Below, piece after piece: positions 36,899 through 41,025 of a DNA stretch of 49,714 nt (the stretch's first letter is position 1; each line of letters opens with the position of its first letter). The stretch is from positions 1-49,714 of the forward strand of contig NZ_JBGUAW010000015.1 of NCBI RefSeq assembly GCF_041821045.1. The letters are read 5' to 3'. Position numbers and translations under genes: made by a program. The DNA is from Thiohalorhabdus sp. Cl-TMA. Lineage in GTDB: Bacteria > Pseudomonadota > Gammaproteobacteria > Thiohalorhabdales > Thiohalorhabdaceae. Under the pieces are notes generated by a model, which was not told where the DNA came from, made no database searches, and worked only from the letters and a program-made list of their open reading frames with translations.

Positions 36899-37387
36899 TC
36901 ACTTGTACTTGAGGTAGGCGTAGCCCTTCTGCTGATAGCGGATGATCTCCGCCTCGGCCATGGGCACCAGCGTAACGAAGCCGTGGATGTCTCCGGGCTT
37001 GTAACCGTGGAAGCTGGCCGCTTGCTCGCACATGCGGAATTCAATGACCCCGTTCATGGTCAGGCTGTTCGCCCTTTTCATCAGGTCCTTGTGCTTTTGA
37101 AAATTCTCAATGGCGAAAAACGGGATCTCGTTGCCGTGCAGGACCAGCACCACCGAGGTGTCGAAGGGGTTGGCGCCATTGAGCTTGCTGATGTAGCTGG
37201 CGCGGTCGAGCACGGAGCTCAGGCGCTCGACGCTGTCCACGGCCACATCGAACACCACCTCCTGCCGGCTGTAGTCAATGTCCTTGGCCGAAGCCTTACC
37301 CCAGGGCGCCTGGGCGGACTCGGCGACGGCCGCTGCCGGAGCGGCCAGGGCGCCCGCGAGCAACAGCGCAAACAGCTTCCGGAACAT
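36899..37387 (-). CDS. Exported DsrE-family protein
   Basis: A 162-residue protein with a signal peptide (cleavage near AVA-E, about residues 22-24) and a DsrE/DsrF-like fold (VVLVLHGNEIPFFAIE, then GVIEFRMCEQAASFHG). The Cys in FRMCEQAA is in the usual position. Periplasmic DsrE-like proteins are linked to sulfur metabolism. GGAGGAC precedes the ATG. Confidence 0.85.
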   Translation of the reverse strand: MFRKLFALLLAGALAAPAAAVAESAQAPWGKASAKDIDYSRQEVVFDVAVDSVERLSSVLDRASYISKLNGANPFDTSVVLVLHGNEIPFFAIENFQKHKDLMKRANSLTMNGVIEFRMCEQAASFHGYKPGDIHGFVTLVPMAEAEIIRYQQKGYAYLKYK

Positions 37388-37556
37388 GGCGTCCTCCGTG
37401 GTTGGATCCGATTGCGCAAGGAAAACTTGTCCGGACGCGGAAATCAACCATCCAGTCCGGAGCCGGCGGGAAGGATACCGGGATCGCCCGGACGTTGCGG
37501 GGTATCGCCACGGCTACTAGGGATGGGATAAGACCACCTGATCAGGAGGGAATCCC

Positions 37557-38057
37557 ATGAAGGCAGCCATAAGCACCCTGCTGGGAAGCGCCGTGCTGGC
37601 GCTCACCGCCACGCCGGTACAGGCCGAGGAAGCCACCTTCAACAACCCGAGCCTGGTTCCCGAAGTCGCCATGAAGGCGGTCAAAGCGGCCGTGAAGGCC
37701 TGTCGCGAACAGGAGACCCAGGTTACCGCCGCGGTGGTGGACGAGGGCGGCAACACCCAGGCCCTCATGCGCGACCGCTACGCCGGCCCGCACACCGTCG
37801 ACACCGCCATCAGCAAGGCCTGGACCGCCGTCAGCTTCCGCACGGACACGCTGGAGCTGCGGGACATAACCGAGCCCGGCAAGTCCGGCTACGGTATCCA
37901 GAACCTGCCCAACGTAACCATCCTGGGCGGCGGCAAGCAGATCATGGTCAATGGCCGGATCGCCGCCGGCATCGGCGTCTCCGGAGCACCAAGCGGCGGG
38001 ATCGACGACCAGTGCGCAACCGCCGGCATCGATGCCATTCAGGAGGAGCTGCTGTGA
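37557..38057 (+). CDS. GlcG/HbpS-family haem-binding protein
   Basis: A 166-residue exported protein: Sec signal 1-23, then the GlcG/HbpS domain (ACREQETQVTAAVVDEGGNT, and GYGIQNLPNVTILGGGKQIM, then GRIAAGIGVSGAPSGGIDDQC). Family members bind haem or small molecules. AGGAGG precedes the ATG. Confidence 0.9.
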   Translation: MKAAISTLLGSAVLALTATPVQAEEATFNNPSLVPEVAMKAVKAAVKACREQETQVTAAVVDEGGNTQALMRDRYAGPHTVDTAISKAWTAVSFRTDTLELRDITEPGKSGYGIQNLPNVTILGGGKQIMVNGRIAAGIGVSGAPSGGIDDQCATAGIDAIQEELL

Positions 38058-38389
38058 ATCAAGCTGGGGTGCCTTTTGCCTTGTTGACCCGCTTGGACCA
38101 GTGGAAGCCCGGCATCGGGCTTTTACCTTGGGGCACTGTCGCCTCCCGAACAAGATAGGCTGTCGACCCCCTATAGTTGTATTGAGGCGGCCTTGGCCTA
38201 GGGATAGGCTGCCTCTGTCTTGTGGATCGCAAGGCACTCTCCTTGGTGTGTGTAGACCGCCCCGCCAGGTTGTTCCCCCCACCTCTCCCCTGGCGGGGTC
38301 TTTGTTTCCCGCCCTTGCGCTAACTGGCGCAATCGTCCTGAAGCGAGCTTCCCGCCGCTGTGCTATTCGCTGCCCGATTGCGGGCAATC

Positions 38390-38403
38390 AAAGTGGGTGT
38401 CCC
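38390..38403 (+). repeat. AAAGTGGGTGTCCC repeat, copy 1
   Basis: Perfect core, preceded by GGGCAATC. It is the outlier copy, 4.8 kb left of the others, in the same orientation. Confidence 0.75.
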
Positions 38404-38433
38404 GTAGGGCCTTCTGTCCCGTAGGGCCTTCTG

Positions 38434-38511
38434 GGCCTGCCCGTGGCCGGGGCGGGGGCGGGGGCCGGGGCGGGGGCGGGCATACTGCTGGTGTACCGAA
38501 TTGGGCGCTGC
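38434..38511 (+). pseudogene. C-terminal fragment of an EamA transporter with expanded Gly-Ala tract
   Basis: Reads G-L-P-V-A-G-A-G-A-G-A-G-A-G-A-G-I-L-L-V-Y-R-I-G, which corresponds to the tail of the EamA protein at 35914-36840 (GLAVAGAGVMLVYRIG) with an expanded GGGGC-type repeat. No transporter body precedes it. Confidence 0.6.
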
Positions 38512-38539
38512 AACCGGCCCCGGCGCCGCGGTAACTCCC

Positions 38540-38716
38540 TGTCGAAAATCTTTACAGGATCCAGCCTGTCTGCTGGCCCTGCCAACGAAGGTCCAATCCA
38601 GGACAATCCGGGACCGCAAGCCCCGTGGGGCCGGCCAGCCCCCCTCCCCTGCGGAGCATAGCGCTCTGAGCCAGTGTAGAAATCCTTTACAACACGGACC
38701 GCCGAAATTCTTCACA
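38540..38716 (+). promoter_or_regulatory. Three copies of a 17-bp motif upstream of a sigma-54 promoter
   Basis: TGTCGAAAATCTTTACA (38540-38556), TGTAGAAATCCTTTACA (38675-38691) and a weaker CGCCGAAATTCTTCACA (38700-38716). They precede the sigma-54 promoter by 40-215 bp, the position of enhancer-binding-protein sites. A PrsR-type activator of PEP-CTERM genes is a plausible ligand. Confidence 0.6.
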
Positions 38717-38755
38717 CCTTCGCTTGGTCTGTCCGAGCCCCCACTTGTCCGGGTC

Positions 38756-38770
38756 TGGCATAACGCTTGC
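38756..38770 (+). promoter_or_regulatory. Sigma-54 (RpoN) promoter
   Basis: TGGCATAACGCTTGC: the GG (38757-58) and GC (38769-70) are separated by exactly 10 bp, and the sequence fits TGGCAC-N5-TTGC with one mismatch. It lies 50 bp before the RBS (AAGGAG) and ATG 38821. Confidence 0.7.
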
Positions 38771-38820
38771 GGGGACACAACCCGGGAGGCAACCGATTTT
38801 CCTGCTGCAAGGAGCGCGCT

Positions 38821-39121
38821 ATGCAAGCAAGTAGCGGCGCTCCCGGTGTTGGCCTCCATTACGATGTGGCCCCCAATGTCTACGGATCCCCGGACTGGGG
38901 ACCCTGGCTTCAGGACACCAGAGACGATGTGGCGGACGGATCCTTTACCAACATGGGCTCGGGGGCTCACCCCGGGCAGTCCAAGTTAGCCCCGCGGGAG
39001 ATGATCTCTTATTCAAAAGGTTGCCCCGGTCCCCAACGCCAAGACCCTGTGGCTACTCCTGGCCGTCAGCGGGGTTTCCTATTGGGCCAGTCGTCGTCGT
39101 CAGAGTGCCGGATCCTGCTAG
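38821..39121 (+). pseudogene. Truncated, frameshifted PEP-CTERM protein gene
   Basis: From ATG 38821 (AAGGAG 6 nt upstream), the frame gives GLHYDVAPNVYGSPDWGPW and about 65 residues ending near ISYSK. In the next frame, from 39020, the sequence reads VAPVPNAKTLWLLLAVSGVS, then YWASRRR: a short proline motif, a hydrophobic span and an Arg cluster, the layout of a PEP-CTERM exosortase signal, ending at TAG 39121. A single-base shift at the AAAAGG near 39016-39020 joins the two. The first part resembles a PEP-CTERM family I recall with VAPNVxGSPxW. The signal peptide and most of the mature protein are missing. Confidence 0.65.
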
Positions 39122-39215
39122 AGCTCGGGTAAGGGAAAGCAAGCCACCATCTGGCCCCCGAACAAAAAGGGCGTCCTATGCGGTGCTCCTTCTGGCGTCA
39201 ATCCAACCCTTTTAG

Positions 39216-39237
39216 GCAAAAGACAAGACCTGACCCC
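39216..39237 (+). repeat. Dispersed repeat AAGACCTGACCCC, copy 3
   Basis: GCAAAAGACAAGACCTGACC followed by CC. It differs from copies 1 and 2 at two positions (AGA for AAG) and has the same orientation. Confidence 0.65.
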
Positions 39238-39353
39238 TCTTACAGGTCGCTCATGGTGCGGTGCCGGGGGCAAGTGGCAGGGACTCTTCCACAGTGGACT
39301 CCTCTCCGGCTGCCCGATCAAGGGCCTGCGGCGTTCTCCGCTCGGAAGAAACC

Positions 39354-39376
39354 GGGGCGGCCGCATGGGCCGCCCC
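39354..39376 (-). terminator. Hairpin downstream of acyl-CoA dehydrogenase
   Basis: 9-bp perfect arms GGGGCGGCC and GGCCGCCCC with a 5-nt loop. On the minus strand it is followed by GGTTTCTTCC, and lies 91 bp beyond the stop. Confidence 0.5.
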
Positions 39377-39466
39377 AAGCGAGCGCATCCCCGCCTCTTC
39401 CTGCCGCCGCCCCCGAGCATCCGCCCTGCTTTATCTTCATCTTCGTTGGAAGGCCAGCTTCGGGGG

Positions 39467-40795
39467 TTATTCCACGCCTTTCCCGGCCACGGCGCCATAG
39501 CCTTCCATGGACTTCTTGTACCGCAGGGGCTTGTTGTTCATGAAGGTGGTGGAGTCGTAATTCTCATCCGCGATCACACCCCAGACCTTGCGCCGTTGCA
39601 TTCCCATGTTCCCCGTATCGTACAAGGGGAAGATCAAGCTCTCCCGCATGTGCTTTTCCAGGGGATTGGCAAGGTCAACGGAGTTAATTCCAACCACTTG
39701 CATGCACTGCCAAACGGCCTCCTTAAGCACCTCGCCGGCGTAGATCTTGGCCATCGCCCCTAGGGCATGGCCTTCGCCCTCATGGGTGTCCAAATAGTGG
39801 GCGCCCTTCCAGGAGAGATAACGTGCCGCTTCGATCTTGGTGGCGATATCCGTCAGCAGGTAGCCCACGTTCTGATAATTGATAATGGGCTTGTCGCTGC
39901 CCGCGGTGTAGGTCTTGCACCAGTCGAGTGCCCATTCGTAGGCGGCGCGGGCATTGCCCACCGCCGAGGCACCGGCCGCCGGTCCGGACCAGGTGAAAGC
40001 CTTTTGTATCACCAGGTCGCCGTCGCCGACGGCGAACACGTTTTCCTCCGGGATCCTGGCGTTGTGGATCTCGAACCAGTTGTTCTGGTCGAGGAATTGG
40101 CCGACGGTCCGAAGCGGCTGGCGGAAGCGCAGCCCCTCGGTCCCGCGGGGGATGATGGCGACACCGAGTCCTTCGCTCCCTCCCTTGGACTTGTCCACCC
40201 GGACAATGGCAACGATCACATCCGCGCCCTGCAGGTCCCAGCCGCCGCAATTGGTTGGCCAATACTTCTCGCCGTTGATCACGTACTCGCCGTTGGCCGG
40301 ATCATGTTCGGCGACCGTCTGGATGCCTACGGGGTGCTTGCCCGGGTGGTCGAAATTGGCGGTACCCCCGGGAGCACCCGGAGGCTCGCTGACCGCCCAG
40401 CCGGCGAGCCAGGAGCTCTTCTCGCCGCTGGTCGCCATTTTCAGCCATTTTTCCTTCTGCTCTTCGGTGCCGAACCAGAGGATGGGCAGCAGGGCCAGTC
40501 CATTCACCAGGAGGGTGGTGGCAAAGCCCGGGTCCACGGTGGATATCTCCTCCGCAGCGATCAGGTAATCCACGTTGCTCAGGCCCGAACCGCCGTATTC
40601 CTCGGGGAGGAAGCACATGGCGAAACCCGCCTTGTAGGCTTCTTCATAGGCGGGCTTGGTCATCACAAAGGCCTTTTGCGGATCGGGTTCTTGCCAGGCC
40701 TCCTCCACGATTGGCTTGAGGGTGTTCCGGGCGAAATCCCGGGTAGTCTTTTGGATTTGCTCCTGTTCTGGCGTCAGGGTGAAATCAATGGGCAT
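39467..40795 (-). CDS. Acyl-CoA dehydrogenase family protein
   Basis: A 442-residue FAD enzyme. N-terminal helices (IDFTLTPEQEQIQKTTRDFA), EEYGGSGLSNVDYLIAAEEI, the middle beta domain with WAVSEPPGAPGG and EYVINGEKYWPTNCGGWD, and C-terminal helices (AGEVLKEAVWQCMQVVGINS). It introduces a double bond in an acyl-CoA substrate. The chain length is not deducible, and no other beta-oxidation gene is adjacent. AGGAGG precedes the ATG. Confidence 0.9.
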   Translation of the reverse strand: MPIDFTLTPEQEQIQKTTRDFARNTLKPIVEEAWQEPDPQKAFVMTKPAYEEAYKAGFAMCFLPEEYGGSGLSNVDYLIAAEEISTVDPGFATTLLVNGLALLPILWFGTEEQKEKWLKMATSGEKSSWLAGWAVSEPPGAPGGTANFDHPGKHPVGIQTVAEHDPANGEYVINGEKYWPTNCGGWDLQGADVIVAIVRVDKSKGGSEGLGVAIIPRGTEGLRFRQPLRTVGQFLDQNNWFEIHNARIPEENVFAVGDGDLVIQKAFTWSGPAAGASAVGNARAAYEWALDWCKTYTAGSDKPIINYQNVGYLLTDIATKIEAARYLSWKGAHYLDTHEGEGHALGAMAKIYAGEVLKEAVWQCMQVVGINSVDLANPLEKHMRESLIFPLYDTGNMGMQRRKVWGVIADENYDSTTFMNNKPLRYKKSMEGYGAVAGKGVE

Positions 40796-40955
40796 GGGGG
40801 ACCTCCTCTGCTTCAGGAGGTTATATCCGGCGAGCCCTCAGGGCGGGCGGGCATAACCTGCAATTCACATTCCATATTTCTCCATTGGGCACCTTTTTTG
40901 GATTTTGTCAATATCTGTTTTTACGATATTACCTGCTGATAATCAAGAATAATTT

Positions 40956-40986
40956 CCAGAAAGGGGCCGAACCTTCCCCTTTCTGG
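40956..40986 (-). terminator. Terminator after the diguanylate cyclase gene
   Basis: CCAGAAAGGGG and CCCCTTTCTGG are perfect 11-bp arms with a 9-nt loop; on the minus strand it is followed by AAATTATTCTT. It is 40 bp past the GGDEF stop. Confidence 0.75.
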
Positions 40987-41025
40987 AATAAAATGGGTGC
41001 CCCCTAGCTTCGCAATGGCCACGAC

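Follow-up and report, generated by a model that had tools for sequence, protein, structure and literature searches.

Positions 38540-39121 of the window, by which we mean the whole 49,714-nt stretch of DNA from Thiohalorhabdus sp. Cl-TMA that was analysed, hold what we take, with a probability of about 0.88, to be a PEP-CTERM/exosortase-substrate pseudogene that still carries a PrsR-type sigma-54-dependent promoter. The original prediction described the relic of a sigma-54-controlled PEP-CTERM gene with an intact promoter, and this reading is supported by protein homology, by the machinery encoded in the same genome, and by the likeness of the promoter to the sites described by Haft et al. 2006 (PMC1569441). 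The elements of the region are as follows.

38540-38556, plus strand: activator box copy 1 (distal), TGTCGAAAATCTTTACA, an exact match to the 17-mer, 135 bp 5' of copy 2
38675-38691, plus strand: activator box copy 2, TGTAGAAATCCTTTACA, an exact match to the 17-mer, 65 nt from the -24 GG
38700-38716, plus strand: weak activator box copy 3, CGCCGAAATTCTTCACA, three mismatches, 40 nt from the -24 GG
38757-38770, plus strand: sigma-54 core GG-N10-GC, GGCATAACGCTTGC (TGGCATAACGCTTGC with the preceding T), consensus score 5/5
38809-38814, plus strand: ribosome-binding site AAGGAG, 6 nt 5' of the ATG at 38821
38821-39021, plus strand: N-terminal remnant of a PEP-CTERM protein, 67 codons long and without the signal-peptide core, assigned by homology to the protein of locus L071 and by family alignment
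39026-39121, plus strand: remnant of a C-terminal sorting signal, PVPNAKTLWLLLAVSGVSYWASRRRQSAGSC-stop, made up of PxP, a hydrophobic stretch, RRR and a stop, in a different frame from the N-terminal remnant

All the elements that had been reported here, namely three 17-bp motifs with the third weaker, a well-formed GG-N10-GC promoter, a ribosome-binding site and a short ORF, and a sorting signal in a frame other than that of the ORF, were found again, the weaker motif being the copy with three mismatches. The sigma-54 core is separated from the ATG by 50 nt. With up to three mismatches allowed, the box pattern TGTNGAAANNCTTTACA had seven matches in the window, where 100 shuffles gave an expectation of 0.53 and none of them reached seven, and both exact matches in the window fall within 38540-39121. 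In the whole 3.74 Mb genome there were three exact matches, including these two, and two more with a single mismatch, while the reversed control of the pattern gave zero matches at 0-1 mismatch. The DNA directly 5' of the promoter (38395-38480) is of low complexity, with repeated CCCGTAGGGCCTTCTG and runs of GGGGC, and an Rfam search of 37000-41000 returned no match. On the 3' side the next long ORF (39467-40795, acyl-CoA-dehydrogenase-like by eye) lies on the opposite strand, and the relic promoter is therefore without an obvious second client.

The best match to this promoter is that of an intact PEP-CTERM gene elsewhere in the same genome, C14:22055. The spacings of the three-box layout are 135/25/65 in the window and 133/25/65 at C14:22055, where the distal box (two mismatches) lies 133 bp 5' of the main box and the last box, CGACGAAATTCTTCACA, is almost identical to the weak box of the window, both standing 40 nt before the GG. 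Because a near-identical box occupies the same place at this gene, we regard the weaker third box of the window as probably a genuine part of this promoter type in this genome. Global alignment of the two promoters scored 167, where 300 shuffles reached at most 143.5, and local alignment scored 40 against 34. We considered a duplication of the whole promoter and do not claim common descent, as the local match consists of just the two adjacent boxes.

The short ORF is a genuine gene fragment, homologous to the mature region of a family of PEP-CTERM proteins sharing the motif D(A/V)APNVYGSP. Over 38839-39030 it aligned with residues 23-86 of an intact PEP-CTERM protein (L071) at 53% identity and E = 1.2e-16, and it is this homology that makes the reading as a relic secure. 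Across the mature region the identity was 52-53% to the L071 protein and 35% to that of locus L064, which is identical to the protein of genome G332. The PEP-CTERM gene in G332 matched the 67-codon ORF at E = 7.3e-7 (E = 6.0e-6 in the reverse search); it is a 244-codon ORF with PF07589 at its end (26.2 bits against a cut-off of 20.7). With a two-row alignment of the relic fragment and the G332 protein as query, a scan of one genome per species found eight loci of the family (L064-L071). Seven of the eight family frames (L064-L069 and L071) end in a VPEP tail, and that of L070 in a hydrophobic tail without VPEP.

The family was rare in the samples searched. Its loci come from metagenome assemblies labelled Gammaproteobacteria, Deltaproteobacteria and Desulfobulbaceae, Hydrogenedentota, Verrucomicrobia, and KSB1, the last being the label of the L071 assembly, which thus provides the closest relative of the window ORF from another phylum. 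Occurrence in such distant groups suggests horizontal spread, or wrong binning of some of the assemblies. When the L071 protein was searched against 398 genomes of the phylum, own included, the window was the only match apart from a weak one (E = 7.6e-4) that covered the middle of the query, and a contig scan with the 67-residue fragment alone as query gave no match. Matches to the G332 protein were found in 15 genomes of the class, of which 13 were rejected as family members, the match beginning only at query residue 146 or later.

The tail is modest evidence when taken alone. It matched neither PF07589 nor TIGR02595, and the nearest model, NF038119, reached only E = 0.07, far under its cut-off. 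In place of PEP its motif has PVPN; this form is not odd here, since two live PEP-CTERM genes of the same genome read VPAPA and IPAPS (translated by eye) and a frame 3' of a box in another genome (L083) carries VPVPA. We identify the tail as a sorting signal because it is placed behind a fragment of the PEP-CTERM family. It might be argued that the whole region is a GC-rich intergenic stretch in which motifs and tail have come together by coincidence, and indeed dinucleotide shuffling of 38821-39130 produced a tail-like motif in 10 of 2000 cases, counted with a regular expression written after the tail had been seen. Against two exact 17-mers, the same layout at the live gene C14:22055, and the homology to L071, however, we consider the chance of such a coincidence to be next to negligible.

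As an exosortase substrate the relic is broken in several places: by eye it has no signal peptide, and it has no in-frame PEP-CTERM domain. Only 14 residues without a hydrophobic core precede DVAPN, compared with about 30 with a core in the relatives (by eye), and in the family alignment everything after YSKG is absent. Judged against the proteins of G332 and L071, the missing middle amounts to about 110-135 residues before the sorting signal. The loss of the signal peptide, the loss of most of the mature part, and the frameshift, all three part of the original prediction, are thus borne out by the alignment with these relatives and by the frame of the tail.

The intact ancestor would have been an exosortase substrate of the D(A/V)APNVYGSP family of about 220-270 residues. 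Phosphorylated PrsR would have bound the 17-bp boxes and activated RpoN-polymerase at the GG-N10-GC core, and the product would have been exported and then sorted by the exosortase. The course of its decay can be proposed as follows from the remaining DNA. One deletion would have removed the signal-peptide core, about 16-17 codons and apparently in frame, and a larger one between YSKG and the sorting signal would have removed the 110-135 residues and shifted the tail out of frame. At the junction AAGGT can be read by eye on both sides, and one slippage deletion at this common sequence could have removed the middle and shifted the frame, so that a single event may account for both changes. Two genomes of the same genus contained no syntenic locus, the upstream genes matching three different contigs of genome G001 and the relic none, and therefore the decay cannot be dated.

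It is also conceivable that the cell has an intact gene whose middle, together with one base, was lost in the draft assembly. The draft consists of 45 contigs, and an indel error could occur in the AAAAGG run at the junction. The loss of more than 100 codons of unique sequence together with the signal-peptide core would, however, be an atypical error, and at E <= 10 the L071 protein as query matched the window alone in this genome, the missing part being found nowhere else in an assembly that is 99.2% complete. We therefore regard an artefact as improbable. A different objection is that promoter and ribosome-binding site now drive a working short gene, the 103-residue ORF at 38821-39132 (with stop), which would encode a new cytoplasmic protein. 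The ATG stands in register with a good ribosome-binding site and promoter, and the frame is open through the former tail. Yet the ORF has no signal peptide by eye, its residues after about 67 are the old tail read out of frame, and as a whole it has no convincing family match (none in NCBIfam and one in Pfam under the cut-off, E = 0.09). The relic DNA, moreover, matched only itself in a search of 56 genomes, own included. A new gene of this kind seems to us highly unlikely, and the decayed PEP-CTERM gene remains the preferred reading.

The machinery that such a gene would have needed is present in the same genome. Contig C5 encodes in a row EpsB2 (TIGR03013, 578 bits), PrsK (TIGR02916, 787 bits), PrsR (TIGR02915, 725-726 bits against a cut-off of 502.6), and PrsT (TIGR02917, 757 bits), each over its cut-off, and an exosortase is found at C5:265066 (E = 1.5e-77). 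Absence of an exosortase or PrsR homologue had been named in advance as grounds for abandoning the prediction, and both are there. The expectation that the 17-mer would recur near other PEP-CTERM genes likewise held, with one-mismatch copies 5' of the intact genes C14:22055 and C2:294506. The genome has nine PEP-CTERM matches over the Pfam cut-off, two of which pass only with their neighbours in the frame. A scan for pairs of box and core covering the window and nine stretches found a box followed 63-75 nt on by a GG-N10-GC core, 5' of the gene and on its strand, for five of the nine (C14:22055, C14:37549, C3:106470, C9:4205, and C2:294506), three of these five boxes having 2-3 mismatches; for the other four no pair was found on their own strand. 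The same scan gave two pairs with no PEP-CTERM gene on the strand concerned (L035 minus, L038 plus), and some weak pairs are therefore noise. The third exact 17-mer of the genome lies at C3:158090-158106 (L001:1501-1517) and is followed after 75 nt by a poorer GG-N10-GC core. Some 400 bp 3' of this box is a tandem pair of ORFs whose acidic, secreted-looking products have DxDxD repeats that resemble EF-hands by eye, and the site may belong to a member of the regulon that is not a PEP-CTERM gene.

The association of the box with PrsR extends across the class. In a sample of 339 genomes, own included, 60 carried the relaxed box and 95 carried PrsR; PrsR was present in 35 of the 60 box-bearing genomes and in 60 of the 279 others (p = 5e-8, an optimistic value as the genomes are related). 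Leaving out our own genome changed little (34 of 59 box-bearing genomes, p = 1e-7), and the reversed box showed no link to PrsR (6/31 vs 89/308, p = 0.30). No PrsR match was found in 25 of the 60 box-bearing genomes, and the reversed control pattern itself was present in 31 of 339; many single boxes elsewhere are therefore due to chance or to another regulator. At the sites in PrsR-carrying genomes a sigma-54 core with a score of at least 4 lay downstream of the box in 29 of 61 cases, upstream in 1/61, and on the other strand in 0/61, whereas such a core lay downstream at 3 of the 28 sites in other genomes (89 sites in total). With the threshold lowered to at least 3 the PrsR-genome counts were 34/61, 6/61, and 3/61, respectively. 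A PEP-like tail followed the box at 6 of 30 class loci (L075, L078, L083, L087, L095, and L100, with frames found by regular expression), four of the 15 with PrsR and two of the 15 without. The regular expression had matched at 7/30 loci, and that at L081 was dropped as not PEP-like.

Among the 29 PrsR-genome sites with a core of score at least 4, the distances from box to GG fell at 51-54, 62-65, 71-76, 82-86, and 96-97 nt, with two beyond 120. Steps of about 11 bp (52, 63, 75, 86, 97) can be seen at PrsR-carrying loci such as L078, L099, L100, L117, L145, and L155. For DNA looping in living E. coli the helical repeat is near 11 bp. The phasing sample consisted of 28 sites (score at least 4/5, PrsR-carrying genomes, own left out), the 32 of 61 sites without such a core having been dropped beforehand, and equal spacings within a genus were collapsed to leave 25 distances. 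The period that fitted these best in a scan of 9.5-12.5 was 11.2 bp, with a mean resultant of 0.76 compared with 0.60 at 10.5 bp; none of 20,000 draws from a smoothed null scanned likewise reached the best value. Seven pairs from our own genome, which stood outside the fit (the window, the five PEP-CTERM genes, and the C3:158090 site), have distances of 63, 63, 64, 65, 65, 75, and 75 nt and fall near the same phase, with cosines of 0.53-0.99. The weak box of the window at 40 nt is near phase as well (cosine 0.90), and the distal box at 200 is off phase (0.22).

These distances suggest that box and sigma-54 core need to share one face of the DNA helix, an apparent phasing that we treat as a side result of a small sample uncorrected for phylogeny. 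We would give even odds to the fuller proposal that the spacing is fixed to one helix face (about 52, 63, 75, 86, and 97 nt) and that the relic promoter, in register with two of its boxes (65 and 40), may remain a target of PrsR, serving as a dead end that is transcribed or as an activator sponge. PrsR binding and present transcription at the relic promoter are putative. Our search found no paper on helical phasing of the PEP-CTERM box and promoter, and Haft et al. 2006 (PMC1569441) nowhere use the terms 'periodic', 'phas-' or 'helix turn', while the word 'helical' appears once, in the reference list. The apparent phasing offers a cheap and concrete test of how PrsR reaches the polymerase.

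The PEP-CTERM cis-regulatory site was described by Haft et al. 2006 (PMC1569441), and the promoter of the relic is such a site, to judge from the parts of that paper used here. They describe a 17-nt motif 1 that ends in TTTACA and is sometimes repeated, followed by a spacer and then by a sigma-54 motif with -24 GG and -12 GC. Compared with their text description rather than with their logo, the relic has motif 1 in three copies, two matching the 17-mer exactly and one weak. Its spacers, 65 nt from copy 2 and 40 nt from copy 3, lie within their range of 32-92 nt (mean 62.8, S.D. 10.6), and the 50 nt from GGCATAACGCTTGC to the ATG within their 23-221 nt. The genomes in their account carry PrsR, PrsK, and PrsT, as does this one, together with an exosortase. 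Unlike their sites (PMC1569441, in the parts consulted), that of the relic has three boxes, with a CTTCACA-type third box common to one live gene, and stands before a broken gene. Support for this kind of control comes from a further RpoN-dependent PEP-CTERM gene, pepA of Aquincola tertiaricarbonis RN12, which is described with a mapped start, a TGGCAC/CTGCTT -24/-12 promoter, and a predicted enhancer upstream (PMC9850573); according to the portion of that report consulted, the gene is intact, its product is named as another PEP-CTERM protein (PepA), and its transcription has been shown, whereas our relic is known from DNA alone. The relatives at L064-L069 and L071 are complete, with a hydrophobic N-terminus, a full middle, and an in-frame VPEP tail, and the relic shares with them the N-terminal mature region. 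The find is thus real but fairly ordinary: the kind of site has been known since 2006, and the gene behind it has decayed. Its value is that the 2006 prediction of a PrsR/sigma-54 control site shared by PEP-CTERM genes (PMC1569441, as far as consulted) is borne out in one genome from its DNA, and that the relic is a case of a control site outliving its gene.
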